NCBI RefSeq assembly: GCF_000419525.1
Contig: NZ_ATTE01000001.1
Coordinates: forward strand, 1,240,001-1,304,000
Source of the DNA: Leucothrix mucor DSM 2157
Lineage (GTDB): Bacteria > Pseudomonadota > Gammaproteobacteria > Thiotrichales > Thiotrichaceae
DNA: 64,000 bases
Reading direction: 5' to 3'
Shown here: positions 47,187-63,896 of the stretch, in pieces
Layout: each line of letters begins with the position of its first letter
How positions within the stretch are numbered: position 1 is the stretch's first letter
Notes under the pieces: model-generated
Seen by the model: the letters and a program-made list of their open reading frames with translations, nothing else
The model's database searches: none
Told to the model about the DNA's origin: nothing
Position numbers and translations under genes: made by a program

Positions 47187-48344
47187 ATGTTTCAGGGGCT
47201 TGCCTTACGGCATTTTGTATCCGGCTTTATCGCGGTGTTAGTGGGTTTCACCAGCTCGGTGGCCATTATTTTTCAAGCGGCGAATGCCGCTGGCGCGACA
47301 CCTTCACAAATCACCTCGTGGATACTCGCGCTCGGCTTAGGCATGGGCCTGACCAGTATCGGATTATCGCTGTACTATCGCCTGCCACTGCTCACCGCGT
47401 GGTCCACCCCCGGCGCGGCGCTACTGGCAACGGGGCTGGTTGGGCTGCCCATGTCCGAGGCGATTGGCATCTTTATGTTCTCATCGGTGCTGATTATTTT
47501 AAGTGGCGTGACCGGCTGGTTTGAGCGCCTCACCGACATTATTCCCGTGCCGATCGCCTCTGCCATGCTGGCTGGCGTGCTATTTCGCTTTGGCGTCGAT
47601 GTGTTTGTCTCGATGCAAACCGAGTTGGTCATGGTGTCACTCATGTTCGCCACCTACTTGCTGGGCAAACGCTTCCTGCCGCGCTACGCCATTATGCTGG
47701 TGTTGGCGGTCGGCTTGGGCTACGCGGCACTGCAGGGCAGCATTCGCTACGAAGCCTTAAGCCTCACGCTGGCAACTCCTGAATTTGTATTCCCCTCGTT
47801 TAACTGGGTGTCGCTACTTAGTGTCGGCATACCGCTGTTTGTGGTGACCATGACCTCGCAAAACCTGCCGGGCATCGCCATTTTAAAAGCGCATAACTAC
47901 AAAGCGCCGCTCTCATCGGTGATCAGCTGGACCGGAATCGCCTCATTAATCCTCGCGCCATTTGGTGGATTTGCCTTTAACCTCGCGGCCATCACTGCCG
48001 CTATTTGCATGGGTGAAGACGCCGACCCTGATCCTAAAAAGCGCTATCTGGCCGCCTTTGCAGCGGGCGTGTTTTACGTGATTATTGGACTGCTTGGCGC
48101 GGCGGTGGTGGTGTTCTTTGCCTCGATTCCTCAGGAGTTGGTATTAGCGATTGCAGGGATTGCATTGCTCGCGACCATTGGCAATGGGCTTAGCGCTGCC
48201 TTGGCGGATGTGGCTGAAAGAGAGCCTGCGTTGATCACGTTTTTGGTGACGGCTTCGGGGATTGTGCTGGGTGGGATTGGTGCGGCGTTCTGGGGGCTGA
48301 TTGCAGGGTTGTTGGCGCGTTGGGTTTATGGGTTTAGGCGGTAG
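47187..48344 (+). CDS. benE: BenE-family benzoate/H+ symporter
   Basis: 385 aa, about 12 helices. BenE-type sequence: GFISVLVGFTSSVAIIFQAANAAGAT-like opening (here SGFIAVLVGFTSSVAIIFQAA), LPLLTAWSTPGAALLATGL, the central MTSQNLPGIAILKAHNY, and APFGGFAFNLAAITAAICMGEDADPDPKKRY. Inner-membrane uptake of benzoate or a related aromatic acid with protons is family knowledge. No aromatic degradation genes are adjacent, so the true substrate is open. Confidence 0.87.
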   Translation: MFQGLALRHFVSGFIAVLVGFTSSVAIIFQAANAAGATPSQITSWILALGLGMGLTSIGLSLYYRLPLLTAWSTPGAALLATGLVGLPMSEAIGIFMFSSVLIILSGVTGWFERLTDIIPVPIASAMLAGVLFRFGVDVFVSMQTELVMVSLMFATYLLGKRFLPRYAIMLVLAVGLGYAALQGSIRYEALSLTLATPEFVFPSFNWVSLLSVGIPLFVVTMTSQNLPGIAILKAHNYKAPLSSVISWTGIASLILAPFGGFAFNLAAITAAICMGEDADPDPKKRYLAAFAAGVFYVIIGLLGAAVVVFFASIPQELVLAIAGIALLATIGNGLSAALADVAEREPALITFLVTASGIVLGGIGAAFWGLIAGLLARWVYGFRR

Positions 48345-48493: not shown

Positions 48494-48533
48494 ATCAACA
48501 GTATAAGCATCTACAGGATTTGGAATTATAAGA

Positions 48534-50228
48534 ATGGAAAATAGTGGCGTTTTTATTGAGCAAGCTGAATACATTGCTCCTGATGACTTTATTGAGTGGT
48601 CAAGTGATCATCCAAATGAAGATGTTATTATAAAAAAACTGACGCAAGCGGGGGCTAAGTTGTTAACGGGCCCTAGAGGTTGTGGAAAAACAACGCTTAT
48701 GCTTAAAGCATACAATAAGCTCTCTAGGCGAGGCTCTAATGGTGCTTTTCCAATTTATGTAAATTTTAAATCTTCATTAAAATTAGAGCCTGTTTATAAA
48801 AGTAAAGCAAATGGTGGTTTTTGGTTCTCCCAGTGGATGTATTTGAAAATTTACCAAGGAATTTATAGTAGTCTTTCTGATTTAGATTCTTCAATCGATG
48901 CTGATCTAAGTATTAAACTAGATAGCGTAAAAAAAATTCTAGGTTTATTAGAACTGGGTGAGATAAATAAAGCTGAAAGAGAGGAGCTAGATCTAACGAC
49001 ATATGGTTTAGAGGAAGATATAAATCGTGTGATGATTTTAACAAAAAAACCTAGGTGTGTGATTTTTCTTGACGATGCTGCACACGCATTCTCGCCAGAG
49101 CAGCAACATGATTTTTTTGAATTTTTTAGGAAAATAAAAAATCGTAAAATATCACCTAAAGCAGCGATATACCCAGGAGTAACTAATTTCCCTCCAACTT
49201 TTAACGTTGGGCATGATGCTGAAGAAATTAATGCATGGGTTAATCCTGAAGGAGATAACTATATGTGGTTTATGACCATGATGTTATCTCGGAGACTGCC
49301 GCAAGAAGTTTATGAAAAGCTTTCGAAAGAAGACTCATTGTTAATAATCATGTGTTATGCAGCATTTGGAATTCCACGAATTTTATTAAATATGGTTAGG
49401 AGCTTTTATTCAGAAGAGGAGGAGTTGAATGGAGTTGTAAAATATAATATATCATTCAATAGAACTAAGTTGCTTTCTCAAGTTAAAGAAAGTAATAAAA
49501 GTGCCGTATCTGTGTATTCTTCCCTTGAGAAAAAACTGCCAACATACAGTAACTATGTAAAAGAAGGTGATGTTGTATATAATAAGATAGTTGAGTTAAT
49601 AAAAACATATAATAAAGATAAAGATGTCAAGAGAAAGAGCATCTCCATTGCTATAAAAAAAGAATTAAGCTCTGACTTAAAGAAAATATTAGGCTTTTTC
49701 CAATATGCTGGTCTAGCCAGTCACAAAGGGCAGATTAGCAAGGGTGAAAAAGGCGTTTTTGATATTTATTTAATAAACTTAGCAACTCTTATTGATAATA
49801 ATGCAATTCTTGCTTCTAAAGCAGCAAAAACTGATGATATTGCTACTTCCTTAAAAAATCGGAGTGCACATGAGTTCACTAGAACTAGGTCCGATTATTT
49901 ACTAACAGAGGGAGGGCCTTCGTTAAAATTGAAAATGCCTGCATGCCAGAACTGTGGGGAAGAAAGAAGTAGCGAAGAAGCTAGGTTCTGCTCAAGTTGC
50001 GGTGCACCTTTAAAAACAGCCTCTATTTATGAAGAACTGGTCAATGAAGAGATTGATGTTCTTCCTTTGACTCCGACTAGGATTAAAGCAATTAAATCTA
50101 AATCCGGAATCAAGGTTGTAAGGGATATTTTGCACGATATTGGGCACAAAGAACTCCTCTCAGTTCCGCAAGTTGGAAAATATTGGGCGGCAAAAATTTA
50201 CTATTTAGCAGAGGAGTACATTTCATAA
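48534..50228 (+). CDS. P-loop ATPase with C-terminal zinc ribbon and helix-hairpin-helix-like tail
   Basis: 564 aa, markedly AT-rich and Lys/Asn/Ile-rich unlike its neighbours. Walker A GPRGCGKT at residues 46-53; Walker B CVIFLDDAAHAF with Asp180-Asp181; the region 195-300 is compatible with an AAA+/ORC- or STAND-like core and a winged-helix segment (about 300-430). A zinc ribbon CQNC...CSSC (Cys471, 474, 486, 489) follows, then a tail PLTPTRIKAIKSKSGIKVVRDILHDIGHKELLSVPQVGKYWAAKI resembling a helix-hairpin-helix DNA-binding unit. The stop overlaps the start of the next gene (TAATG), so the two products are made together. No named family recognised; a defence or stress role is inference from the partner and island context. 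Confidence 0.7.
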   Translation: MENSGVFIEQAEYIAPDDFIEWSSDHPNEDVIIKKLTQAGAKLLTGPRGCGKTTLMLKAYNKLSRRGSNGAFPIYVNFKSSLKLEPVYKSKANGGFWFSQWMYLKIYQGIYSSLSDLDSSIDADLSIKLDSVKKILGLLELGEINKAEREELDLTTYGLEEDINRVMILTKKPRCVIFLDDAAHAFSPEQQHDFFEFFRKIKNRKISPKAAIYPGVTNFPPTFNVGHDAEEINAWVNPEGDNYMWFMTMMLSRRLPQEVYEKLSKEDSLLIIMCYAAFGIPRILLNMVRSFYSEEEELNGVVKYNISFNRTKLLSQVKESNKSAVSVYSSLEKKLPTYSNYVKEGDVVYNKIVELIKTYNKDKDVKRKSISIAIKKELSSDLKKILGFFQYAGLASHKGQISKGEKGVFDIYLINLATLIDNNAILASKAAKTDDIATSLKNRSAHEFTRTRSDYLLTEGGPSLKLKMPACQNCGEERSSEEARFCSSCGAPLKTASIYEELVNEEIDVLPLTPTRIKAIKSKSGIKVVRDILHDIGHKELLSVPQVGKYWAAKIYYLAEEYIS

Positions 50229-51058
50229 TGCCTGATTGGAAGAAGTCGGTAAGTGCTTGTGCTACTACCGTCACAATTAGAAATATATCTGATTATGTTG
50301 ATATCAGAGATGGAGCTAATTCACCTATTGATAGTTTTTATATCGAAAGAAATAAGCTATTGACGTCGGTAAATCCTGATTATGCTAATTCACATCCTTC
50401 AATACCTCCTTTAGTTCTAGTTGGTCTAATTTCTCTCACAGAAAATTATTTTCGTGAAATATTGGCTGGTGTTATTACTATTTGTCCTAAGGCAAAAGAA
50501 AAAAGTGCAAACAGAAGCCTGAATTTAGCAACTGCTTGGTTTGGTTCTGATGAAATGGAAAAAGGAGCTTTTGAAAATACATCTTTCTCTGATCCTAAAG
50601 TCGTAAAAAAAAACCTGAATGATTTAGTCGGAGTAAATGTAACAAATAATAATCAGATCTCTACTCCCTTAGAGGAGTTTGGGAAGCTTTGTGAGCTTAG
50701 ACATGCCATTGTTCATAGCGCTGGTTTGCTTGCTGGAAAAAATGCTGTCAAACTTGAACTTCCTAACTCACGAAATTCAGTAAAAATAAATATTGGATTT
50801 TCTGAGCTTCAAGAGGCTGCAGATGTTTGTACCTCGCTTGTCTGTGCTGTGAATATTGAATTGTTTATCAATATATCAACCAAGTGGCTTAATGAGTGGC
50901 CAAGAACCCCTGCTTATAGAAATGAGAATGTAAATAATCTGTTCAAAAAAATATGGTCATTATTTTATTCAGAGTTTGATGCTAGGAATAGCCTTATAAG
51001 TGATCCGCTTACTAGGATTAAAGTTAGAAATAAAATTATAAGAACTAATGCCACATAG
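50228..51058 (+). CDS. HEPN-like putative RNase, partner of the ATPase
   Basis: 276 aa from ATG 50228, overlapping the ATPase stop by one base (TAATG). Mostly helical. The segment LVLVGLISLTENYFREIL, then KLCELRHAIVHSAGLLAGK, fits a HEPN-type helical bundle; R158-x4-H163 (RHAIVH) is the catalytic-style R-x4-6-H motif of HEPN RNases. The N-terminal 55 residues and the C-terminal 70 have no recognised family. By analogy with HEPN effectors controlled by NTPases or antitoxins, it may cleave RNA when the ATPase senses a trigger (inference). AT-rich like its partner. The R-x4-H motif alone is short, so HEPN assignment needs structure or profile support. Confidence 0.6.
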   Translation: MPDWKKSVSACATTVTIRNISDYVDIRDGANSPIDSFYIERNKLLTSVNPDYANSHPSIPPLVLVGLISLTENYFREILAGVITICPKAKEKSANRSLNLATAWFGSDEMEKGAFENTSFSDPKVVKKNLNDLVGVNVTNNNQISTPLEEFGKLCELRHAIVHSAGLLAGKNAVKLELPNSRNSVKINIGFSELQEAADVCTSLVCAVNIELFINISTKWLNEWPRTPAYRNENVNNLFKKIWSLFYSEFDARNSLISDPLTRIKVRNKIIRTNAT

Positions 51059-51167: not shown

Positions 51168-51368
51168 ATGATGAAAGTTTCTCTTACTTTGCAATTAAGT
51201 GGTGCCGTCAGGAAAATAAAGCATGAGGCACTTAATCATGATCTAAAAAAAGGAATAGACTCGTTAAATCGAGGAGAAGGTACGCCACTCGATATGAAAG
51301 CTATCAAAGCCAAAGCGCGAGTCATTAAGGAGCGTAGGCATAGCTACATGCGGTCATCAAGCCTCTGA
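51168..51368 (+). CDS. Shortened ParD-like antitoxin (possible remnant)
   Basis: 66 aa. The C-terminal half (LKKGIDSLNRGEGTPLDMKAIKAKARVIKERR) reads like the toxin-binding tail of ParD/CopG-family antitoxins, and the first residues MKVSLT resemble the first strand of the same family. Between them most of the ribbon-helix-helix domain is missing, so DNA binding is doubtful. No ParE toxin is next to it. AGGG precedes the ATG. It may be a decayed or internally deleted antitoxin left by island turnover. Confidence 0.5.
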   Translation: MMKVSLTLQLSGAVRKIKHEALNHDLKKGIDSLNRGEGTPLDMKAIKAKARVIKERRHSYMRSSSL

Positions 51369-51413: not shown

Positions 51414-51632
51414 ATGAGAGCATCCCTAAGATCAAAAATAATCACCGTCTGCGACCAAAAAATTGCCGCAAAAGGTGAGGGCGTCGGCCTGTCATTCTAC
51501 GCGTTCTTCGCCAACAAAAATGATGATCCTGAGCTACTGATGGAAGCGGCTACCTGGTGGATTCAAACCCATAAACTGGATCACTTTGAAAAGGCAGTCA
51601 AAGTTAAAAACATGGTTGAATCAGGTAGCTAA
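51414..51632 (+). CDS. Small DUF6500-like protein
   Basis: 72 aa. Compact globular sequence with GEGVGLSFYAFFANKNDDPELLMEAATWWIQTHKLDHFEKAVKVKNMVE, which I recall as the DUF6500 pattern; the family assignment is from memory. No function is known. It is short but well composed, with an AGG 8-10 nt before the ATG, and lies in the small-ORF segment after the ATPase/HEPN pair. Its base composition is closer to the chromosome than that of the ATPase gene. Confidence 0.6.
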   Translation: MRASLRSKIITVCDQKIAAKGEGVGLSFYAFFANKNDDPELLMEAATWWIQTHKLDHFEKAVKVKNMVESGS

Positions 51633-51698: not shown

Positions 51699-52049
51699 AT
51701 GAAACTAGAAACTAATAGAACGCTAAAGCTCAATGGTATGAAGGTTATTCTTCGTAGTCATCAAGCAAAGTCTACACAGAAAGCTGGCGTTACTACTCAA
51801 ATTGATCAAATGCCAACGCAGAATATTCAAGATTTCGTAATAGAATTAGCTAAGCATCACAACGTCTCTTATAACTATAACTCGATGGATCAGTTTGCTG
51901 ACTCTGTAACCTCGTTAGCGGGTGATGACGTAAAGCATGATCATGTTGAAGACCTTCTCGTCGCTTTAAAACGTGCAGGTAAACTTTCAATGCAGCAGGT
52001 GGCTAGATTATCAGTTAGTTACTTAAGAGAGCGACATGGCCATGTTTGA
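51699..52049 (+). CDS. Hypothetical protein, 116 aa
   Basis: No family recognised. N-terminus basic (MKLETNRTLKLNGMKVILRSHQAKSTQKAG); the C-terminal half is helical and charged (DDVKHDHVEDLLVALKRAGKLSMQQVARLSVSYLRERHGHV), with an LSMQQVARLSVSYLRE stretch that resembles a helix-turn-helix. It is the last small ORF of the AT-rich island, convergent with the interrupted VWA gene. It could be a regulator or a cassette-type gene; support is only the open frame and composition. Confidence 0.45.
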   Translation: MKLETNRTLKLNGMKVILRSHQAKSTQKAGVTTQIDQMPTQNIQDFVIELAKHHNVSYNYNSMDQFADSVTSLAGDDVKHDHVEDLLVALKRAGKLSMQQVARLSVSYLRERHGHV

Positions 52050-52142: not shown

Positions 52143-53255
52143 TTATTCCGCAGCCGTAAAGCTGACATTGAATTTGCTGGTTTCTCCCGCTTTTAACTCA
52201 AAGGGTGTTTTCTGTGTTTCTCTCTCATATTTGGTTTCAACCACGTACTTCCCGAGTGGAATTCGAACTTTGCACGGTTTGCCTTTATAGGAGCTGCAGT
52301 CAGTCACACGGTCACCGCGCTCATCTTCATCGCCGCTATCCTTGTAAATATAATGCCTCGCTTTAATCGACTTTCCAGTCTCTCCTGCGCTGGCAGTGAG
52401 CTCCACTTTGCCTGTTTGCCCGGTAATAACCTCTACGTCGCTGGTTTCATCAAACCTAACTTCAACCGGCGTTTTTAGGTGAAATTTATTGTAGCTGGAC
52501 TCAATAATGTAACTGCCCACTGGAATGCTTGCTTTGCAGGCTTTGTCCTTCGTTGAGTAGCAGTTAGTGACATGATCGCCACGCACATCTTCATCGCCGC
52601 TATCAGTAAAAATGGAGTAACTTGCTTTAATCCATGGCCCGCCTTCAACTTCGACGGCGACAATTTTTAAGTTGTTTTCAGGCTTTTTAACGACGGATTT
52701 TGGTGCTTCTTTTGTCTGTACCTTTTCAATTACTTTTCCCATCGCATCATTTAGTGCAGATGCATTTTCTGCTGAGAAATATTCTCCGCCAGTGGCGTCA
52801 GCGATGCACCGGAGTTCTTCTCCAGTCTGCTTGTCGACATCAAAGCCAATCACATGGGCAACAAAATCGATGCCTTCGCTTTCCAGCGCTTTTGCAGTGC
52901 CGCAGGGGTCAGCGTCGCAGTTTTCTTTACCGTCGCTAATTAGAATGACGGTGGCTTTTTCTTCGGTATAGCGTAATTCCTCAGCCGCCATTTTGATGGC
53001 ACGGCTGATCGGGGTTTTTCCTTTTGGTTGGATTTTTCGTACGGTGGATAGCATGCCTTGCTTATCCACGGGGCCAACCGGGAGCAGGGTTTCTATATCG
53101 TTGCAGTCGCCTTTTTTACGATGACCATAAGCGATCAAACCGAGGTGGGTGTTTTCGTCCCACTGCGAAACGACATTGCTCAGTGCTTCTTTTGCAATGT
53201 CAATTTTAGCGGCGCCATCAATTTGGCCCCACATACTGCCTGAGGCATCAAACAC
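52143..53255 (-). pseudogene. VWA-domain protein, 3' part of gene split by IS66-family insertion
   Basis: Carries all but the first ~32 codons of a secreted von Willebrand factor A protein. The part begins inside the MIDAS motif (VFDASGSMWGQ) and runs through TPISRAIKMAAEELRY and VILISDGKENCDADPCG, then two homologous beta-repeats (SIFTDSGDEDVRGDHVTNC... and YIYKDSGDEDERGDRVTDC...). A GTG inside the IS end lets the frame read VKGY before VFDASGS, but the signal peptide is lost. Joining to the fragment at 54792-54886 and dropping one target duplication restores an in-frame 399-aa gene. The reading frame is still intact after the insertion, pointing to a recent event. Confidence 0.85.
53248..53255. 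repeat. 8-bp target-site duplication, left copy
   Basis: TCAAACAC directly abutting the left IS end; an identical copy abuts the right end at 54792-54799. Eight bases is the duplication length of IS66-family elements. Confidence 0.92.
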
Positions 53256-53271
53256 GTAACCCTTCACGGGG
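53256..53271 (+). repeat. IS66-family terminal inverted repeat, left
   Basis: GTAACCCTTCACGGGG, pairing perfectly with the right end at 54776-54791. Confidence 0.9.
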
Positions 53272-53274
53272 GGC

Positions 53275-54741
53275 TTACGCTGATATAGCGTGCTGACCTA
53301 AGGGTAGCCGTACGGTAATAGCCTCACCACACAGGCCTTGTTCACAGACTTTTCTCAATAGTCCATAAACGCCTAAGCCCAACCGCTTACAGGTTTCAGT
53401 CAGAGTCAGAATCACCGGACGGAACTGATCTCCTCTGGCAGACTGACTGAAGAAACTGGTTTTACGCCAGATCACATAAGGACGTATCGCACGTTCTGCT
53501 TCATTGTTGGTCATGGGAATCGCGCGATCCTGCAAAAACGTCCAGAGCATCGATTCATCCGCCAGCAGTCGTTTGCACTGATTGGCTGTTTTGCTGGCTT
53601 TTTTTAACGGGTCAGCGGGCGCGGTCTCACACCCCAGGCACAGTAGCGTATGGATCGCCTGTTTGAATCGTCGCATTCGTGTGTGGTAGCCAGCATCAGA
53701 ATAGCCGCCCGATCGCCAACGATTACGACAGTGTACAATCAAGCGGGATAATCGCCAGAGTTGTTTCCCCAGCACCCCGGCCCGTCCCACACGTTCTGAT
53801 ATTTTCCGAAACTTACGGATAATATGCGCCCAGCAAAGCTGGCGCTTTTCGACCGGATAATCGTTGTAGCCGCCATGTTGGTCAGTGACCAGTATACCCT
53901 CAAAATTATCCAGTAAACCCTTCGCGGCACCTTTACCCCGAGAATGATGCGTTAGAAAGTAGACGACTTGCGAGGAACACAGCACCCAAAGCCAACGCTG
54001 CTCATTATTGCGGTAATGACTGGTTTCATCCGCATGAGCAACGGGTAAATTCCGTACCGCCTGACCCACTTGCTGATACAGCGGCAGCAACCATCCCGTG
54101 ACCGAGCGGGTGGCCTGGCTCACGGCACCGGTACTGAAGGCGAGTTGCCAGTGATCTTTCAGTAAGCGTTGAATGTTTGACACCGATAAGGCATAAGCGC
54201 CATTCATCAGCGTAATCCAGCTGACCAGTCCCGGCCCCATTTGCCCACAGGGAACCGTGTCTGGCAAGCGAGCCACCTGACGCTTGCGGCAACCCGGACA
54301 GATTGCCTCATAAAGACAATGTTCAGTGACTTGACTGCGAACCTCAGGCAGGTCAAAGACCTGATGTCGCTGATAAGGCTCCTGAGCGACATCACACACC
54401 GCACCACAGGTGCATTGAGTGCCTGGGTAGTAATGAACTTGCTCATCCGTCGCAGACAGCTCTACCCGAACGCGTTGATGACCCTGATGACCCGGCTGGG
54501 CTCCTTGCTTGCGAGGACTCTTAGGCTTCTTCTCGCGCTTAGCCCGTTGTTCCGGTGAATCCTGGGACGGTGGTCTGGAGGAGTTTCTGGAAGAACTCCC
54601 GCTGCCTGCGATGTCTTCCAGCTCAGCGACACGCTGTTCCAGTTGGGTCACTAAATCCAATAACTGACGATTGAGACGCTGCGACGCCGCCAGATCCGCG
54701 GGCAGTTGGTGATTGAAAAGCGCCTCAGTTAGTTTGTTCAT
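53275..54741 (-). CDS. tnpC: IS66-family transposase (TnpC type)
   Basis: 488 aa. The N-terminal leucine-rich coiled coil (residues 23-45) is followed by a basic Ser/Arg/Pro segment (SRNSSRPPSQDSPEQRAKREKK) typical of IS66 TnpC, a zinc-binding region with CTCGAVC and CPGCRKRQ, and a DDE catalytic core: Asp238 (VAHADET), Asp287 (LVTDQHGGYND) and Glu414 (MTNNEAERAIRPYVIWRK). Cuts and joins DNA at the element's ends. Full length without frameshifts, so likely active. It is the sole gene of the element. Confidence 0.94.
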   Translation of the reverse strand: MNKLTEALFNHQLPADLAASQRLNRQLLDLVTQLEQRVAELEDIAGSGSSSRNSSRPPSQDSPEQRAKREKKPKSPRKQGAQPGHQGHQRVRVELSATDEQVHYYPGTQCTCGAVCDVAQEPYQRHQVFDLPEVRSQVTEHCLYEAICPGCRKRQVARLPDTVPCGQMGPGLVSWITLMNGAYALSVSNIQRLLKDHWQLAFSTGAVSQATRSVTGWLLPLYQQVGQAVRNLPVAHADETSHYRNNEQRWLWVLCSSQVVYFLTHHSRGKGAAKGLLDNFEGILVTDQHGGYNDYPVEKRQLCWAHIIRKFRKISERVGRAGVLGKQLWRLSRLIVHCRNRWRSGGYSDAGYHTRMRRFKQAIHTLLCLGCETAPADPLKKASKTANQCKRLLADESMLWTFLQDRAIPMTNNEAERAIRPYVIWRKTSFFSQSARGDQFRPVILTLTETCKRLGLGVYGLLRKVCEQGLCGEAITVRLPLGQHAISA

Positions 54742-54775
54742 TGTTTAATCATAACGAATTGTGGCCTAAATGCAA

Positions 54776-54791
54776 CCCCGTGAAGGGTTAC
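54776..54791 (-). repeat. IS66-family terminal inverted repeat, right
   Basis: CCCCGTGAAGGGTTAC, the reverse complement of the left end. Confidence 0.9.
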
Positions 54792-54886
54792 TCAAACACA
54801 ACCATGGCCTGAGGGTTGCCCTCGGCATAGCTGCTCGTTAGGGATATCAGTGACACCAGTAATCCCAGAAAAATAATCCTTCTCAT
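54788..54886 (-). pseudogene. VWA-domain protein, 5' part (signal peptide) cut off by IS66-family insertion
   Basis: ATG at 54886 with GGAG 6 nt upstream opens a signal peptide (RRIIFLGLLVSLISLTSSYA) followed by EGNPQAMVVFE, where the frame hits a TAA inside the IS end. In the reconstructed gene these codons run on as AMVVFDASGSMWGQ. The promoter and ribosome-binding site are therefore stranded on this 32-codon stub. Confidence 0.88.
54792..54799. repeat. 8-bp target-site duplication, right copy
   Basis: TCAAACAC, identical to 53248-53255. Confidence 0.92.
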
Positions 54887-55082
54887 TTTTGTCTCCCTTC
54901 ATAAAATGACCCTTAGATACTTATGATCATAGTCAGTTATGAGGGCTGGGATTACGCGTTCTTTGGAAGTCTTGAGCTACATCAAGAAGTGATGAAAAAT
55001 AATGAATAACTGATATTTATCATTGAGTTGGGAGCGATTTAGTGTTGGTAAAGCGCTATGTTTTTAATCGCTCGAATCAGCA

Positions 55083-55874
55083 CTAACGACAGTTTAATGC
55101 TTCAGTCGCGCTCGCTTTGCCAGTATAAGGCCCAATATCTTCACTAAGCAGTTGGCCATTCTTAAAGCGGGTTTTGATCAGTCGCGACCAATTAGCATCA
55201 ACCGTAATCATGGCAGCATCTTTCCCGCATTGCTGCACGCCACCGGTAATGTAGTTATGCCCAATATTGTGATTGGTTAAGCCTTGCACCTGTGCGATTT
55301 GTTGCAAGCCACCATCGCGATAGCTCCAGACTCTGAGGATTCTGGCTAAGTGTGGGCGGTCAATATAGGCAATATCTATCGCGCCATCATTATTAAAATC
55401 GGCGACTCCAACAGGCGCTAACCAGCGGTAGGCTTGCCCGATATAAGGCGTGCTGGCGATTAATGACAGGGTATTGGGTGCGCTTTGTGTGACGCCATAA
55501 ACTGCGATTTGGCCACCTTTTTGATTGTGACTGCGAATGGTGATGATTTCATTGCGGCCATCGCCATCAAGGTCAGCTAAGCGGGGTTGGATGTCTTCGA
55601 AGACTTGGGCGGTTTCAAGGGTGACTGAGAGTGTTCGCCCGTCGGCGGTTTTAGCGTGAAGCGATCCGGCTTCGATGGCATCGCCCAGTACGCCGTGAGC
55701 GTAGCGGGTGGTTGCGTTGTCGTACCACGCGGATTTGATGCCGTTGGTGGTGTTTGAGCTTATGAATGACTCTGGAAAGTCGGTGGCAGGTGGTGTTTCA
55801 GCGGCGAGTAGTTGAGTGCTTAGCGAGCAGATAGTTACGGCGAATAGGATTTGGGGAGCGAAAGGCTTAGTCAT
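55083..55874 (-). CDS. Secreted FG-GAP/VCBS-repeat protein
   Basis: 263 aa. Signal peptide ending TQLLA before AETPP. Two clear calcium-loop repeats of FG-GAP/VCBS type: QPRLADLDGDGRNEIITIRS and PVGVADFNNDGAIDIAYIDRP. Likely a small beta-propeller exported to the periplasm or surface; paired cysteines near the C-terminus. The role is unknown. It is a single gene between the interrupted VWA gene and the AAA ATPase, all on the minus strand but with gaps of ~180-200 bp. Confidence 0.83.
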   Translation of the reverse strand: MTKPFAPQILFAVTICSLSTQLLAAETPPATDFPESFISSNTTNGIKSAWYDNATTRYAHGVLGDAIEAGSLHAKTADGRTLSVTLETAQVFEDIQPRLADLDGDGRNEIITIRSHNQKGGQIAVYGVTQSAPNTLSLIASTPYIGQAYRWLAPVGVADFNNDGAIDIAYIDRPHLARILRVWSYRDGGLQQIAQVQGLTNHNIGHNYITGGVQQCGKDAAMITVDANWSRLIKTRFKNGQLLSEDIGPYTGKASATEALNCR

Positions 55875-56052
55875 GGTTTTATTTATTACTTATTGGTAGC
55901 GTTACTTTTTATTACGTGGATTTTCTGGTTTTAGATGTATCAACTGATTTTTACCTACTCGGGTGGCGTCGATAGTTTGAGCGAGTCAGCTTGTAGCACG
56001 AAGGGACAAGCTGACCATCAAGGTCATGATTAAATCAGATCTCTAGCTAACG

Positions 56053-59000
56053 CTAATCATCCTGACTAGCTCGACCAGAAGCCCGCTGTTTAATATTCGT
56101 CAACCAGCTTAATCGTTTCTTCGCCGTCTCCGAAACCGTCGATAGCTCTTCACCCATGTGCTGAACCCCACGCGAAATCGCCTTTAACTGCTCGGCCACT
56201 TCCGCCTGATTCGCACTCTCATCGCCACTTCCTTTCAGCTGCTCAAGCTGATTAGAAATCGTACTCAATTGCGGAAGCAGGGCGGCTTCAATTCGTGGCT
56301 GCGCCAGCGTGCTGGTAAGCTCTTGACTCAAGCTGCCCAAGCCTTGTGATATCCGCTCCATTTGCTGAGTCAGCGCGGTATTTTTGCCACCTTCGGAAAT
56401 CGATGTGCCGATTTGATGCAGCTGCTTCACGACATGTTTAATCACAGTTTGCAGCTCTGCCTGACCATTGGCGAGCACCTGATCTGAGTGTTGGAATGCG
56501 GTGCTGATTTCACCCAACCGATCAGCGATGCGCAAGCCAATTTCAACCTCGGCATTCTTCGCCATATTGGCGGTTTGAAACACGGCTTTAACGTCGGCCC
56601 AACGTTGCTTTTCAGCGTCGGTCATATTGCCGCGCAGCTCGGCCAGTTTCAGCAGGTTTTCTTCTGCGCCACCAGTAAGCAATTGCGCCTCACCCTGATA
56701 ATGGTCCTCGATCATTTGCATCAGTTCATTATCATTCATCGCCGCTGAAACCTTCTCGGCCATCTTGTTCATATTGCGATAACTACCTTGCAACTTAAAT
56801 GGTGGTTCGGTTCGGTATTCATCATTTTGCGCCGCAGAGGTTATGTATTGCTGATTCACTCTCAGCACAACTTCCTGCACGGTCAGCAGCTTCTTAAACA
56901 CGTCGACGATCTCATTGAGTTCTGCACTGCCGTAGCTATGGCTCAGGTCGCTGGTGCTCACCTCACGGCCTTTGGCCATATCGATCAGGGTATAAATGTC
57001 GCTCATTTCGCGGGTTGCCAGCGGTGCGAGTACATTGTTTGAGGTTAAGCTGTTTTCCAGATAACTGAGCGCGAAGATGTCTTGTTTGTCTCCCAGCACT
57101 TCACCCAAGTTATAGATATCAGCACGGTTGGCCAACATATCCGGAATCTTAAACACTTCGCCAGACTCAGTGTAAGGGTTACCCGCCATGATGATGCAGA
57201 AGCGTTTGCCGCGCATATCATAGGTTTTGGTTTCGCCTTTCCAGACGCCGTCAATGCGCCGCGTGCCATCGGTGAGTGAAATGAATTTCTGCAAAAACTC
57301 GGCATTGGTGTGTTGGATATCATCCAGATACAGCATCACGTTGTTATTCATTTCCAGCGCCAGATTGATTTTATCCAGCTCTTGCGCAGCGGTGGAGTCG
57401 GGCGCTTGGGTTGGGTCCAGCGACACCACATGATGCCCCAGCGATGGGCAGTTGATCTTCATAAATATCATGCCCAAGCGACTGGCAACGTATTCGATCA
57501 AGGTGGTTTTACCGTAGCCCGGTGGGGAGATAAGCATTAACAAGCCCATCAAGTCGGTGCGCTTATCATCGCCTGCGGTGCCCATTTGTTTTGCCAGATT
57601 GTCGCCAATCAGCGGTAAATAGGATTCATTGAGCAGCTTGTTACGCACAAAGGAAGCCAGCGGGCGTGGTTTGAAAGACTCCAGTCGGAATGCCTTGCGC
57701 TGGGTATCTATAATGCCATTACGCAGCTGTAAATAACGCTGATAGCGGGTGACTACGGTTTGTTTGTGATAGTCGTAGCGCGATAGAAATTGATCGAATG
57801 ACAAGCTTAAGAAGCGTTCGTTGTGTTCACTCTGAATCAGCGGGTGGTCGCCCAATAATTCGGTAATACGCATTTCCAGCGGCACATTCAATACCGTCAA
57901 CAGCAAGCTACTTTCCAAGCTAATTAAGGCGATGGCCTCGGGAATGTAGTGCTTTAAGGCATTACTTTTAGTCTCAACCAGAGCCTGAAGCCAGGCATTG
58001 ATAAACTGCCAGCGCTGTCCGGTATTGGCTTTCAAGCTGGCGAGAGCGGCTTCAAAGCTGTCTTTAGAGTGGACCGCTTCAAGGTTGCGCATTAGCTCCT
58101 GAACCAGCTCCTGCCCGTAGTGGCTCACTGAGAAGTTAAGTGTGGTTTGCGATAGCTCTTCGACCAGATAATTGGCTGCCTGATCAAGTACCACCTCAGA
58201 CTCAAGTTGTGCGCTTAGCTTGGTTGATTCTGCAAAGTCTACTAAGTGAGTTTTAATCTCCTGTGTCAGTTGCTTCAGCGCGGTATTATCTTGAAATACT
58301 CGACGCATTTCCGTCGCCGATAATGCGCGATTAGCCCATGAGGCTGCTTGCTCCTGTGCTTGGGTTTCTGCCCAAAATAACAGAGCAATACTTCGCGCCA
58401 TGGGATTAAATCGCAGCAAGCCAGCCTTGGCTTTTATTACCAATAATTGCTTCAGGATAAGGGCAGCATCATGATCATGAATGCCTTTCTCATAGCCTTC
58501 TTTATAGCGTGGCGCGGCAAATTCACGAACGGTTTTTAATAGGTCTTCACCGACCTCAACCTCATGGTTTTCGATCGCTTCAAATAGCTGACCAGCCAGA
58601 TATTCCGCGCGATAAAACGCCGGCGTTTCAGACTCTAAATTCTGCTCCCAATAGTCGCGTAAACTCTCAAGCTCCGGCGCATCGACGCGTTCAAAAAAGT
58701 CGGTGCCGCTTAGGTGAATATATTGATGATCACCTCTGGGTAATAGGGTGAGGTCCAGCTCCTGAGTGGTCACACTAAAGCGGTGCTTGGGGCCTAATTT
58801 GATAACGTTGCCGCCATCTTCATAAATATCCTGCTTATCGCGTAGGCCACGAATCGCTTGTTCTTTGTGCCCCTTCAAGCTGCCTTCAAGGTCATCCGCT
58901 TTAACGCTGTCATCCAGCTCCCGTAACTGGTCGGATATATCGCGTACTTTGATGACGAGTGGGTCGGAGGCGTAGAAGGTATTGAGTTCATCCATTTCGG

Positions 59001-61383
59001 TGAACTTGGCCGTACGACGTTGGATTGAGGTAATAATCCGGCTAGCCGCATCCATCAGGTTTTGCGCGCGTCGTTGTCGCTCATTCACCAGCGTTTGCTT
59101 ATGCGCCTCAAACGACTCATAAACCTCTTCACGCTTGCCAATAATGTCAGTTAGGAATTCATCATGATCGCTAAACTGACTTTCTAATTCTTCAATTTGC
59201 ACCAGCAAGCGGCTGAGTTGTTCATCACATTTATTGGGCGTGGTGGCTAGGCTTAGTGCATTGGTCACGCTTTGGCTAAATAGCTTAAACTGCACCCCGA
59301 ACTGCGCGGTTGCCTCGCTTTTGCCAATGTCTTTTTGCTTGTGCTGGGTACGGGCGCGGGATTGGTTGAGCTTGGCGTAGATCTCTGAAATATCATCCAC
59401 CACCCGAATGCGCACGGTGGCATCATCGACTTTCAAGCTAGACATCAACTCAGAGAGTAAGTCCAAGTCAGCCGCCATTTTCTCCTGCGTTTCAAGCGCC
59501 GCTTCCAGCTTCATGAGCGTGTCGGCTTGCTCCAGCTCCTCACCAATTTCAGCGAGCTTTTCCCGGTAGGGGATCAGGGCGGTTTCACCGGCTAGGAAGT
59601 GGACGGTTTCAGAGCCTAAGGATTCCTGCGTTGCCAGTAGCTCGGCTTCCAGTGCGGCAATGCGCTCCTGATCGATATAGCGATATTCACGGATCGTCAT
59701 CAGGTGGCCGCGTTGATGGCGAATGCGGTTTAAGGCTTCAACAAATTCCTGAGTTTGAGTCCAGGAGTCAGCGCGAATCGATTTAAGAATGGTTTTTTGC
59801 TCGGCCTCGGCTCCCTGCATTGCGCTATCTGCTTGCAGGCGAATGTTTTCGACTTTCTCAAACTCATCTAATACCTTGTCGGAGGTGCTGCTGATCTCGC
59901 TGACCACGTGTTTGATGTCAGCCAGCTCCGGGCTTTCGAACCAGTAGTACGCTTCAAACAGGCGGTTGCTGGCTTTGATGAGTTGATTGTAGTGCGTCAT
60001 CGAGACGTCAGGCTGCTGCACGCTGCGAATCACGCTGTACAGGTCGGAGATGCCGCGTACCAGTTCGGCATTACCAATGCGCGCGTAGAAGCTATCGCCG
60101 GGCGGCTGTCGGCTGGCGTATTCATCGGATACAAAGGGCGTTTGCCAAATCTGCATCGGGTGGATGCGGGTAGCTTCCTCACTTTCTGAGCTAAACAGCA
60201 CCATCTGGCCATTTTCAGCAATCGCATAACCATGCCCAAAAATTGGCGTGGCTAAGCGCTTTTCAATCAGGTTATAAGAGAACAGGGCGGACATACCCGC
60301 GACCGGCTCATAGAACACATACAGCACATCCTCACCATTGGGCGAGCGGATCATTCGCTTAAAGCGCATGTCGCTCACATCACTATCAAAGCGGTGAATT
60401 TCACCGTTTTGCAGATAGGTTCCGCCGGGGAAAATGACGCCGTGATCTTCCGGTAGTTGAATGCAGGATTGCCCAATTTCATCAATGCGGTCGACCCGCT
60501 GAGTGAGTCGGTTAAACACCAGATAGCGCCAATCGTCTTCGCGATACGGCAGTATTTTTAGCAAGATCAGCTGGCCGACTTCGGCAAAGAATATCTTGGC
60601 ATCGTCCAGCGCTTGGGTTTTATCGCTGACCTCTTCATCGTAAATACCTAAGCCGGTATCGGTGTTGTTTTCAATCTTGACGGTAAGATCGCCGCCAATG
60701 GTTTCGACAAATAAGGTATCGAGGATATTGAGGTGAGGGTGCGGGCCTTGCACGGCAAAATCACGACCTGCTTGCAGCCATTCAAAGTCGGTAGCGGCAG
60801 GCAGTGCAATGTCGCGCTCACCGCGATTATCAATATAGGTTAGCTCGCCGGAGGGCATGATCTCCCAGCGAAATACCCGCAAATCGCTGATGCGCTCGCC
60901 AATCTGAAACGAGGCTAACAGCTTACCGTTTCTGACCAGCAATTGAATCAGGCGAGCGTGTTTGTAGTAGGCGTATAGCTCCCTAAAATCAGCCGCAAAG
61001 GCGCGGTCTGTAAGGAAAGTATTTTCCAGCGGAACAGGTTTTAGCTCAAACTGATTGTTGTCCTCAATCAGCGTGTACAGCGTAAACACATCATCGATTC
61101 GGGTTTCTTTTTTCAGCCCGATAAACACGTTATAGCCAAACAGTAACTGGTCGCCGACCTGCACAATGTCTCTGGCTACGCAGTTGTTTTCGGTGCGCAC
61201 TCGCAGCCGACCGGTGACTTCCATTGCCGCGCTTTGAAACTCTTTTAAGCGCTCAGCGTTGAGCGACGCGGTCAGCGATTCGAGCGATTTACCCTGTTTT
61301 TCCAGGCGATTGCGAATAATCTCGTAAGCATTACTTTCAGCAATCGCCCGATCTGTGATTGAGCTTTCTTCTTGTTCCGGCAT
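56053..61383 (-). CDS. Giant AAA ATPase (DNA repair ATPase / DUF3686-like), partner of flotillin-like protein
   Basis: 1776 aa. Residues 1-~480 form a predicted beta-rich region (repeated VGDQLLFGYNVFIG-, FLTDRAFAADF-like strands). A long coiled-coil part (~480-900) follows, then a helical region, and an AAA core with Walker A SPPGYGKT at 1286-1293, Walker B MLYLDDIQ (Asp1354-1355) and sensor-1 IIMAGNPYTE; the C-terminal 200 residues are again helical/coiled. Relatives are often annotated 'DNA repair ATPase' (from memory, DUF3686-containing), which is unproven. It follows the flotillin-like gene by 20 bp and probably works with it at the membrane. No signal peptide; cytoplasmic. Confidence 0.78.
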   Translation of the reverse strand: MPEQEESSITDRAIAESNAYEIIRNRLEKQGKSLESLTASLNAERLKEFQSAAMEVTGRLRVRTENNCVARDIVQVGDQLLFGYNVFIGLKKETRIDDVFTLYTLIEDNNQFELKPVPLENTFLTDRAFAADFRELYAYYKHARLIQLLVRNGKLLASFQIGERISDLRVFRWEIMPSGELTYIDNRGERDIALPAATDFEWLQAGRDFAVQGPHPHLNILDTLFVETIGGDLTVKIENNTDTGLGIYDEEVSDKTQALDDAKIFFAEVGQLILLKILPYREDDWRYLVFNRLTQRVDRIDEIGQSCIQLPEDHGVIFPGGTYLQNGEIHRFDSDVSDMRFKRMIRSPNGEDVLYVFYEPVAGMSALFSYNLIEKRLATPIFGHGYAIAENGQMVLFSSESEEATRIHPMQIWQTPFVSDEYASRQPPGDSFYARIGNAELVRGISDLYSVIRSVQQPDVSMTHYNQLIKASNRLFEAYYWFESPELADIKHVVSEISSTSDKVLDEFEKVENIRLQADSAMQGAEAEQKTILKSIRADSWTQTQEFVEALNRIRHQRGHLMTIREYRYIDQERIAALEAELLATQESLGSETVHFLAGETALIPYREKLAEIGEELEQADTLMKLEAALETQEKMAADLDLLSELMSSLKVDDATVRIRVVDDISEIYAKLNQSRARTQHKQKDIGKSEATAQFGVQFKLFSQSVTNALSLATTPNKCDEQLSRLLVQIEELESQFSDHDEFLTDIIGKREEVYESFEAHKQTLVNERQRRAQNLMDAASRIITSIQRRTAKFTEMDELNTFYASDPLVIKVRDISDQLRELDDSVKADDLEGSLKGHKEQAIRGLRDKQDIYEDGGNVIKLGPKHRFSVTTQELDLTLLPRGDHQYIHLSGTDFFERVDAPELESLRDYWEQNLESETPAFYRAEYLAGQLFEAIENHEVEVGEDLLKTVREFAAPRYKEGYEKGIHDHDAALILKQLLVIKAKAGLLRFNPMARSIALLFWAETQAQEQAASWANRALSATEMRRVFQDNTALKQLTQEIKTHLVDFAESTKLSAQLESEVVLDQAANYLVEELSQTTLNFSVSHYGQELVQELMRNLEAVHSKDSFEAALASLKANTGQRWQFINAWLQALVETKSNALKHYIPEAIALISLESSLLLTVLNVPLEMRITELLGDHPLIQSEHNERFLSLSFDQFLSRYDYHKQTVVTRYQRYLQLRNGIIDTQRKAFRLESFKPRPLASFVRNKLLNESYLPLIGDNLAKQMGTAGDDKRTDLMGLLMLISPPGYGKTTLIEYVASRLGMIFMKINCPSLGHHVVSLDPTQAPDSTAAQELDKINLALEMNNNVMLYLDDIQHTNAEFLQKFISLTDGTRRIDGVWKGETKTYDMRGKRFCIIMAGNPYTESGEVFKIPDMLANRADIYNLGEVLGDKQDIFALSYLENSLTSNNVLAPLATREMSDIYTLIDMAKGREVSTSDLSHSYGSAELNEIVDVFKKLLTVQEVVLRVNQQYITSAAQNDEYRTEPPFKLQGSYRNMNKMAEKVSAAMNDNELMQMIEDHYQGEAQLLTGGAEENLLKLAELRGNMTDAEKQRWADVKAVFQTANMAKNAEVEIGLRIADRLGEISTAFQHSDQVLANGQAELQTVIKHVVKQLHQIGTSISEGGKNTALTQQMERISQGLGSLSQELTSTLAQPRIEAALLPQLSTISNQLEQLKGSGDESANQAEVAEQLKAISRGVQHMGEELSTVSETAKKRLSWLTNIKQRASGRASQDD

Positions 61384-61403
61384 CGTCGAGCCCTGTCAGT
61401 TGG

Positions 61404-63218
61404 TTAGGAGTCAGCTGAAGTGCTGCTGTCAATTGTCGGCTTATTGGCGCTCAGAAACTTCTGAATTAACGCATCCGCCGTTGGGCTTTTGCCGACGACA
61501 CCTTCAATGGATTTACCTAGTGACAAGGAGCGCGCGAATGACTTAAAGAAGTCACCATCACCGCCCACAATATCGATTTTAGCTTTAGCCAGCGCGGTTG
61601 CCATAGCATGAGCTTGCTCGATGGAGACTTTCTCATTGGCGCTGATTTCTGCCATTGCACGTTCAAATTCTTTCTCGATTTTGAGGCGGAACTCTTCATG
61701 GTCGCGCGCCGAGTCAGACATATTGGCGAGGGCTTCCATTTTATCGGTCAAGCCATCGGCTTCTGCTTTAAAGCGTGCACTAATTACTTTCGCTTCGGCA
61801 AAACCTTTCTTCTCCATTGCATCCGCTTCTGCTTCCTGAACTTGTACATCGGCCAGTCCTTCAGCGGCCAGCTCAGCTTGCACACCTTCTGCCAAGGTCT
61901 TCTTGGCTTGAGCTTGCTTGGCGGAGGCTTCTAACTCAGCGACAGCCAGTGTATGAATCTCTCTGGCCTTATGGCTGGCTTTGGTCTCATCGGCTTCTGC
62001 TTGTTTAACCTGCTTAACCAACTCTTCCTGAGCGTTGGCTTCGGCTTGTAAAATAGAGACTTGCTTCATGCGCTCAGCTTCAGACACCACGCGCACTTCA
62101 TTGATTTTCTCTTCTTCCTGAGCCACTGTTTTCTCGACTACAATGCGCTCGCGAATAGTATCAGCGATTTCGGTTTTCTTAATTTCCAGCGCCTTTTCTT
62201 TATCAATGCGCTGCAGCTCAACATCGCGCTCGCGGGAGACTTGCTCTAGCTCTCTGGCGCGGGTGACTTTTTCTTCTTCAATTGCGACCGCGCGCTGGCG
62301 GTTATTGGAGGCCACTTCAACTTCACGCTGGCGGTTTTGTTCGAGGATATCAAGCTGCTCATCGGTGGCGATTCTGGCGCGCTCAGAGCGTAAACGTTCT
62401 TCTGAGGTAATCTTGGCAGTCTCGGCTTCTTCGCGTGCCTGAATGCTTTCGATTTCACGTTTTTGGCGGGCGACTGCATCAGCTTCCTGGCGCTCTAATG
62501 CCAACATCGCTTCACGGGTTTCAACATCCTTCTTCTTCATCGCCATTTGCTGGTCGCGTTCCAGCTCATTGGTTTTGATATTGTGGGTCGCAGTCAGCTC
62601 GGTGATTTTGCGAATACCTTCCGCATCCAAAATATTACTGGAATCCAGCGCCGACTTTGGCGTTTGCTCTAGATAATCAATGGCCACATCTTCCAGCGCA
62701 TAACCGTTCAGATCGTCACCAATCACTTCAACGATTTTATCTCGGAAGCCAATTCGGTCATCAAATAGCTCAACAAAGTCCATTTGCTTACCCACCGTTT
62801 TTAAGGCTTCGGCAAACTTTGCGTTAAACAACTCATTCACTGCGGCTTTATCAGAAGCGCGATCAACACCGATGGCTTTGGCCACCTTCAGCACATCGTC
62901 CTGTGTTTCATTCACCCGCAGGTAAAACGCGACGCTAATATCAGCACGGATATTATCTTTACAGATCAAACCATCTTTGTTTTTGCGGTCGATTTCCAGC
63001 GTGATCAGAGAGACTTTCATTAACTCTTTTTTGTTGATCACCGGCCAAACGATGCCACCCGTAAACTTAACTTTCGGGGTGCTGCTCATGTCATTCACGA
63101 TGAGCGCCCAGCCTTGCGGCACTTTGACGTAGAGTTTAGTAACTGCGAATAAAATACCGATGATTATTAGTGCGATTATTCCCACTAACACCAGCGTCAT
63201 AATTGAAAGTGTACCCAT
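61404..63218 (-). CDS. Flotillin-like SPFH/band-7 protein (YqiK type)
   Basis: 604 aa. One N-terminal transmembrane helix (residues 8-29, VLVGIIALIIIGILFAV), then an SPFH domain (about 30-190: KVPQGWALIVNDMSSTPKVKFTGGIVWPVI ... RADISVAFYLRVNETQDDVLKVAKAIG). Next is a ~300-residue Glu/Ala/Arg/Lys coiled coil and a flotillin tail with repeated AEAD/AEAK motifs. It matches E. coli YqiK in order and size class. Flotillins scaffold membrane microdomains. Middle gene of a three-gene unit with the YqiJ-like gene (48 bp upstream) and the AAA ATPase (20 bp downstream). Confidence 0.87.
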   Translation of the reverse strand: MGTLSIMTLVLVGIIALIIIGILFAVTKLYVKVPQGWALIVNDMSSTPKVKFTGGIVWPVINKKELMKVSLITLEIDRKNKDGLICKDNIRADISVAFYLRVNETQDDVLKVAKAIGVDRASDKAAVNELFNAKFAEALKTVGKQMDFVELFDDRIGFRDKIVEVIGDDLNGYALEDVAIDYLEQTPKSALDSSNILDAEGIRKITELTATHNIKTNELERDQQMAMKKKDVETREAMLALERQEADAVARQKREIESIQAREEAETAKITSEERLRSERARIATDEQLDILEQNRQREVEVASNNRQRAVAIEEEKVTRARELEQVSRERDVELQRIDKEKALEIKKTEIADTIRERIVVEKTVAQEEEKINEVRVVSEAERMKQVSILQAEANAQEELVKQVKQAEADETKASHKAREIHTLAVAELEASAKQAQAKKTLAEGVQAELAAEGLADVQVQEAEADAMEKKGFAEAKVISARFKAEADGLTDKMEALANMSDSARDHEEFRLKIEKEFERAMAEISANEKVSIEQAHAMATALAKAKIDIVGGDGDFFKSFARSLSLGKSIEGVVGKSPTADALIQKFLSANKPTIDSSTSADS

Positions 63219-63266
63219 CGTGATGCCTCTGCAAGATTTAAATTATTGGTGTGTTATTTTGAAAAA

Positions 63267-63896
63267 TTATTGCGGCTTAACTTGGTAAAAGCCTGTTGTG
63301 TAGTCGTAGCTGTAGAGTTTTACAGAATCGCCGCGAGTGATGTCATTCGGCTCTGCACAGCGTATTTTTAAGATTAAGCCTGCACCACCATCATGCAGTG
63401 ATGCCTCGCCAGTTGTGGCGCTGACTTTACCGCTGCGAACCGTGACGTACTGCCCGATAAAATCTTTAGACTGTTTGGCGGCTTGCTTTTTAAAGAGTGG
63501 TTTTAACGGCTGTAAACAAGGAGAAATTAGAGTGGCGCCAACAATCGGCGCGATTAATAAAATCCACACCCCAATGGCGATTTGCACCCAACCGGTGGGC
63601 AGCATGGGATAGATGAAATACACCGCCAGAAAGCTGAGCGCCCAAGAGGCTAATATAATGAATGACAGGCTAATGGTGATCGGGATGCCATCCAGCCGGA
63701 ATTTAGCGAGCAGGCCGCTAATACTGAGGGACGAGTCTGCGACATCAAGATCTGCATCCATCGCGACATCGCCATCAGAGCCTTCAAAATCGCCAAAGCC
63801 AAAGCTTGCGACTAACCAATAAAAGACGACCAGAATCAACAGGCCGCTGTAAAACACGGTGGGGAACGTAAATATCCCTGAGATAAACCCACTCAC
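63267..63896 (-). CDS. YqiJ-like membrane protein with OB-fold (NfeD-type) C-terminus
   Basis: 209 aa. Three hydrophobic helices (about 10-32, 74-95, 105-125), an acidic loop FEGSDGDVAMDADLDVADSS between the first and second, and a soluble C-terminal beta domain QYVTVRSGKVSATTGEASLHDGGAGLILKIRCAEPNDITRGDSVKLYSYD, an OB-fold as in YqiJ/NfeD proteins. In E. coli yqiJ is beside yqiK; NfeD-like proteins partner flotillins. First gene of the unit. The promoter should lie in 63897-64000, which is AT-rich. Confidence 0.82.
   Translation of the reverse strand: MSGFISGIFTFPTVFYSGLLILVVFYWLVASFGFGDFEGSDGDVAMDADLDVADSSLSISGLLAKFRLDGIPITISLSFIILASWALSFLAVYFIYPMLPTGWVQIAIGVWILLIAPIVGATLISPCLQPLKPLFKKQAAKQSKDFIGQYVTVRSGKVSATTGEASLHDGGAGLILKIRCAEPNDITRGDSVKLYSYDYTTGFYQVKPQ

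Follow-up and report, generated by a model that had tools for sequence, protein, structure and literature searches.

The window, the whole 64,000-nt stretch of Leucothrix mucor DSM 2157 DNA analysed here, carries two open reading frames on the plus strand, which we denote A (48534..50228; ATG start, 564 aa) and B (50228..51058; ATG start, 276 aa). The stop codon of A and the start codon of B are interlocked in the pentanucleotide TAATG (50226..50230, plus strand), where one base is common to both frames—an overlap described in an earlier note on this DNA, and one that suggests translational coupling of the two genes. In most relatives the A-to-B gap lies between −23 and +11 nt. The ORF finder extended B upstream to a TTG at 50183; the relatives begin at a conserved ATG. 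A promoter and terminator scan of the locus was uninformative.

The pair has a GC content of 34.8%, compared with 49.7% for the remaining window, in agreement with the earlier observation that both genes are more AT-rich than their neighbours. It is part of an AT-rich stretch (~48.35 to 52.1 kb) that also contains three small ORFs. GC content of the pair was below that of the flanks at 21 of the 21 loci measured (on one Rhizobium plasmid by less than 1 percentage point), which indicates that low GC goes with the family and is not peculiar to this site.

The three small ORFs downstream of B (51168-51368, 51414-51632 and 51699-52049) were considered as extra parts of the cassette and rejected, since the similarity to other loci stops with B; PADLOC profiles gave no match to any of them. 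The middle one, in the AT-rich tail 3′ of the pair, is a small gene of the DUF6500 family (1.5e-29), flanked by the other two ORFs of unknown kind. Further downstream, on the minus strand (52143-63896), lie genes for a von Willebrand-type protein, an IS66-like transposase, a 1776-aa AAA ATPase and a flotillin-like protein, all named from sequence alone.

Domain architecture of A and B

By sequence and structure model, A is an AAA+ ATPase of the Orc/Cdc6-STAND clade with a zinc ribbon and an HhH-like tail. The AAA+ core (residues about 9-290) contains Walker A (45-52, GPRGCGKT) and Walker B (176-181, VIFLDD, ending in D180-D181), and is followed by a helical and winged-helix-like region (about 310-420), a zinc ribbon (471-489; C471/C474/C486/C489) and a helical tail (about 510-564). 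The Walker motifs and the CxxC...CxxC ribbon had been noted from the letters of this sequence, and comparison of 21 homologues bore them out: the P-loop Gly and Lys, both Walker B Asp and the four zinc-ribbon Cys are invariant, as is a G-x-P-R motif at residues 279-282. A matched the Pfam family PF24389 (ORC-CDC6-like) at 1.5e-10 (40.9 bits, above the cut-off of 27) and Zn_Ribbon_1 at 5.4e-6, likewise above cut-off, over residues 471-493. For the tail (514-563), the label HhH-like proposed in the earlier note is a fair one, the segment being helical in the model and one relative of A matching HHH_5, weakly and below cut-off. The above-cut-off Pfam match of A, together with the invariance of motif residues in A and B at 20-30% overall identity, shows that these features are not due to chance.

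The structure of A was modelled with AlphaFold2 on 19 sequences (pLDDT 86, pTM 0.84). Foldseek searches with this model gave archaeal Orc1/Cdc6 initiators as the best matches (Orc1, E 3e-6), and a second-look aligner placed the archaeal STAND-type ATPases 2qen (Z 17.0, 4.2 Å over 320 residues) and 2fna (Z 15.7) first, with CED-4/NLR proteins (Z 12-15), TnsC (Z 13.6) and Cdc6 (Z 13.3) at lower ranks. The Orc/Cdc6 core fold and the winged helix that follows it are both present in the model (Orc1 3e-6; 2qen Z 17.0). BrxC of BREX, Avs3 and RdrA were among the first 50 second-look matches; with the NLRs, they belong to a clade in which immune proteins abound. The C-terminal repeat sensor of STAND receptors (LRR, TPR or WD) is not found in A, which ends in the zinc ribbon and the short HhH-like tail. 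Sequence searches of solved structures with A returned matches confined to the P-loop range. The winged-helix, zinc-ribbon and HhH-like modules suggest that A binds DNA.

B carries the motif R158-H-A-I-V-H163 at the end of a helix (145-163), as seen in both sequence and model, confirming the R158-x4-H163 spacing pointed out earlier. Eight residues are invariant among 21 homologues (D35, E72, R76, R158, H159, H163, N209 and F246), and all 21 conform to RH[ACGS]-x-[VIAT]-H, that is, to the HEPN motif R-x4-6-H in which the Arg is followed by a polar residue. Failure of homologues to conserve R158/H163, which the earlier note had named as a ground for refutation, is not seen. In Pfam, B matched HEPN_RiboL-PSP at 3.2e-5 (24.4 bits, below the cut-off of 28.4 bits), and this is the sole family matched by more than one B member (6 of 16, again below cut-off). 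The model of B is helical (pLDDT 81). Of the four best matches in second-look alignment, three are HEPN proteins (HepT 7bxo, Z 6.8; Csm6 6tug, Z 5.8; 2q00, Z 5.4), with scores that are modest given a helical protein; Foldseek with the same model returned nothing significant. In a viral protein library, a HEPN-annotated phage protein stood at rank 7 (probability 0.80), and the sequence search of solved structures with B gave no informative relative. Absence of a HEPN fold had been named beforehand as grounds for abandoning the HEPN assignment; what we find is a fold whose best matches are mostly HEPN proteins and a recurrent, sub-cut-off Pfam signal. Each of these lines is weak alone, but motif, Pfam and fold together make it very likely that B is a HEPN protein, and B may accordingly be expected to cleave RNA.

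Linkage, transfer and a methylase-bearing sister clade

Intact A-B pairs were found at 22 distinct loci, with B directly after every full-length A, so the prediction that the two genes are kept together in other genomes held at every intact locus. These include Psychrobacter, a Holophaga MAG and Microbulbifer, plasmids of Limimaricola, Rhizobium and Cupriavidus, IMG/VR contigs, one more Pseudomonadota genome and E. coli; the pair is thereby spread over several classes of Pseudomonadota, one Acidobacteriota MAG and about 3% of sequenced E. coli. Among 398 Pseudomonadota genomes, B occurred in two, both with A; the same genomes held two further A-like matches, distant (E about 1e-43) and without B. 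B without A was never found in our searches. The distance matrices of A and B correlated with r = 0.94, a value reached in none of 5000 permutations, and on this sequence evidence the two genes co-evolve.

Comparison with the Psychrobacter locus by blastn revealed DNA similarity over 48520..51036 (plus strand; 76% identity, 2520 columns) and none in the flanks. The Psychrobacter, Holophaga and Microbulbifer loci are 67-76% similar to the window in DNA, from at or just before the start of A until shortly before B ends, and blastn found no match between the flanks of the window pair and those of the other three. The confinement of the similarity to A and B across three loci indicates that the unit of transfer is exactly these two genes, carried horizontally between very different bacteria. 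A is absent from 56 relatives of the window genome, six of them of the same genus, and phage records searched for the pair gave no match. E. coli searched with the window DNA also gave none; its copies were found only through a relative in the methylase clade described below.

Several copies have a mobile setting: a plasmid copy lies beside ParDE and HipA, another copy beside a type IIG R-M gene, the E. coli copies at thrW with an integrase, and others on prophage-type contigs, a setting that partly reflects sampling because IMG/VR is viral by choice of collection. Synteny with a sister species extends as far as the transporter gene at 48342 and breaks there, and the contig of that species ends soon after; beyond the transporter gene (locus L049, 6012-10122), where the window has the pair, the sister species carries a transposase and a 648-aa gene matching the PADLOC profile 'Ankyrin' (PDLC02908, 1.5e-132). 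In this genus, the position next to the transporter gene may be a hotspot for accessory or defence genes.

The earlier note missed a sister clade in which the pair is accompanied by a methylase. At 12 of the 22 loci, a neighbour of A encodes an N6-adenine DNA methylase domain; this gene lies directly upstream on the same strand in 11 of them and is divergent and split in the twelfth (L018). The remaining 10 loci, the window's clade, have no methylase beside A, and the window locus itself has no DNA methylase. In the tree of A, a branch with 100/99 support separates the 12 from the 10, and the split needs no more than a single gain or a single loss of the methylase. We also looked for an orthologous methylase elsewhere in the window genome and rejected the candidates: four N6-methylase-like loci (frames of 505-541 codons) align over only 64-113 residues at 31-34% identity.

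In the E. coli strains read, the cassette consists of three genes behind an integrase at tRNA-Thr (thrW), next to proA. Most of it is present in 145 of 5,426 E. coli genomes at ≥99% identity, commensal strain HS included. The E. coli methylase gave a full-length PADLOC match to a generic 'type II methyltransferase' profile (8e-237).

Natural variants and wider relatives of A add further observations. In E. coli EC7 (L080, 2702-6717), A is broken by an IS3 insertion after about codon 491, close to the zinc ribbon, whereas the methylase is intact and B open. An open B beside an interrupted A indicates that loss of intact A does not make B obviously lethal; this would fit an effector that needs A and argue against a plain toxin set free when A is lost, provided that the insertion does not silence B. 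Piscirickettsia plasmids (L010, L011 and L012) hold relics of the pair, in which the ATPase part of A is gone, B is frameshifted or interrupted, and a VapC toxin gene lies close by. On a Planktothrix plasmid (L009, 5179-7536), a protein that aligns end to end with A but is without the zinc ribbon adjoins a PAPS reductase, a DUF4007 gene and an unknown 239-aa protein; this looks like the same type of ATPase in a phosphorothioation-type locus. Two distant relatives of A (L038, 563-2994; L039, 811-3068) each stand beside an unknown protein of 255-265 aa without Pfam match, possibly another effector partner.

Proposed function and rival explanations

On balance, we lean towards the view that A and B form a two-gene defence module of the abortive-infection type. 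A would use its winged-helix, zinc-ribbon and HhH-like regions to bind nucleic acid and would serve as an ATP-driven sensor; B would become active only once A has sensed the DNA of an invader or a product of that DNA's replication, and would then, probably as a dimer, cut RNA, whereupon the infected cell would stop growing. In the sister clade, the N6-adenine methylase would mark the cell's own DNA, with A and B taking the place that a restriction enzyme has in R-M systems; in the window's clade, which has no such methylase, the invader would be recognised in some other way. We infer the sensing of DNA, the control of B by A and the defence role, like the mechanism as a whole, from the anatomy of the two proteins and from what HEPN RNases and Orc/Cdc6-clade ATPases are known to do in conflict systems (PMC3710099, PMC10853773, PMC12839542). 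The earlier note had arrived at an ATPase/HEPN-RNase defence module; that module is supported here in its anatomy and linkage, and the note's functional reading is one that we regard as plausible on the same grounds.

That the sister clade has a methylase but no restriction endonuclease suggests unmethylated DNA as the trigger and RNA cleavage as the outcome. A tentative, more specific possibility is an R-M-like immunity with an RNA-cutting arm, in which A would read unmethylated invader DNA and fire the HEPN RNase while the methylase shields self; the window's clade would have lost or never gained the methylase, and its pair would sense a DNA structure specific to the invader. Should this hold, a self-mark by DNA modification can gate an RNA-cutting suicide effector without a restriction endonuclease, and an unnamed mobile immune module lies beside a methylase that a PADLOC profile treats as ordinary type II. 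The two-gene branch without methylase is a natural comparison for what the ATPase senses, and the E. coli version, found in commensal strain HS, is directly testable.

An unlikely alternative is a toxin-antitoxin module with B as the HEPN toxin and A as both antitoxin and regulator, the pair being kept through addiction of the mobile element and not for phage defence. The tight overlap and fixed order of the two genes, their plasmid and prophage setting and the ParDE or VapC genes beside some copies would suit such a system, and so would the Piscirickettsia plasmids, which lack the ATPase part of A and also have a frameshifted B. However, the known HEPN antitoxins (MNT) do not resemble an AAA+ ATPase of 564 aa that carries DNA-binding modules, the methylase of the sister clade would have no role in addiction, and in E. 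coli EC7 A is interrupted yet B is open. It is improbable, too, that all members are R-M-like, with the window's A reading methylation laid down by a methylase coded elsewhere in the chromosome and A and B forming a methylation-dependent restriction arm. That a methylase stands beside A in half of the family, in one well-supported clade, speaks for this idea, as do the four other loci with an N6-methylase-like domain in the window genome; but none of the four is orthologous, and the two-gene cassette crosses phyla without a methylase, which would be dangerous for a killer guarded by methylation.

Very improbable, in our judgement, is a role of A as a replication or partition factor of mobile elements (an Orc/Cdc6-like initiator, or TnsC-like) with B as a regulatory HEPN protein and no part in defence. 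The matches of the A model to Cdc6/Orc1 and TnsC, and the mobile setting, are what such a factor would lead one to expect; in chromosomes, however, the pair is an isolated two-gene cassette with no replicon genes nearby, and the catalytic HEPN residues are invariant, although a purely regulatory protein would not need them.

Comparison with known systems

Searches with PADLOC 2.0.0 (2023; later systems are outside that release) gave only weak P-loop, zinc-ribbon or HEPN-motif matches for A and B, and neither NCBIfam nor PHROGs gave anything over cut-off for either gene. NCBIfam of June 2026, in which the DS-41 model is included, had no model over cut-off for the E. coli A, B or methylase, which argues weakly that the set was unnamed by then. 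Open-access papers dealt with related themes and not with this gene combination, the supplements of the 2022-2026 screens being outside that coverage.

DS-41 is a validated anti-phage system of 2026 (NCBIfam NF053860; PMC13092281) whose ATPase is distantly related to A (E 0.008 with E. coli A; 3e-6 with the Planktothrix relative); the match falls well short of the curated 370-bit cut-off, and the comparison is by the ATPase alone. Type II R-M systems differ from the window locus, which has no DNA methylase, whereas the sister clade has one. HepT-MntA (PMC7641770) has the HEPN fold that B probably adopts (7bxo being its best second-look match), the R-x4-H motif and the two-gene operon, but the partner here is an AAA+ ATPase and not a nucleotidyltransferase, and the Pfam search gave no MNT match.

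HEPN proteins at R-M loci and the PrrC anticodon nuclease place an RNase next to a DNA methylase and are proposed to act when restriction fails (PMC3710099). The likeness lies in the putative RNase effector beside a DNA methylase, which applies here to the sister clade. In the 2013 HEPN survey, however, the HEPN genes of R-M operons are accessories to the restriction enzyme and not the sole nuclease (PMC3710099), whereas the present unit is without restriction endonuclease or helicase, and the HEPN protein is its only predicted nuclease.

The BREX-related BR/Hma systems consist of a DUF499 ATPase, an N6-methylase and a helicase, many with an N-terminal HEPN domain on the ATPase (PMC12839542), and similarly combine an Orc/Cdc6-clade ATPase, an N6-adenine methylase (here in the sister clade) and a HEPN RNase in one locus. 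DUF499 is not among the best 25 Pfam matches of A, however, and A is half the size, has a zinc ribbon and HhH-like tail and is paired with HEPN as a separate gene; the window branch is without methylase. No helicase-nuclease is found in the window or beside the Psychrobacter and Microbulbifer pairs, and the E. coli cassette has three genes only.

PARIS couples the ABC-type ATPase AriA to the TOPRIM nuclease AriB, with neither gene deletion toxic (PMC9122126). Its ABC-type ATPase and TOPRIM nuclease are unrelated to A and B as proteins; nevertheless, as a two-gene cassette of an ATPase sensor and an RNA-targeting nuclease borne on mobile elements, it provides the best analogy in layout to the module proposed here.
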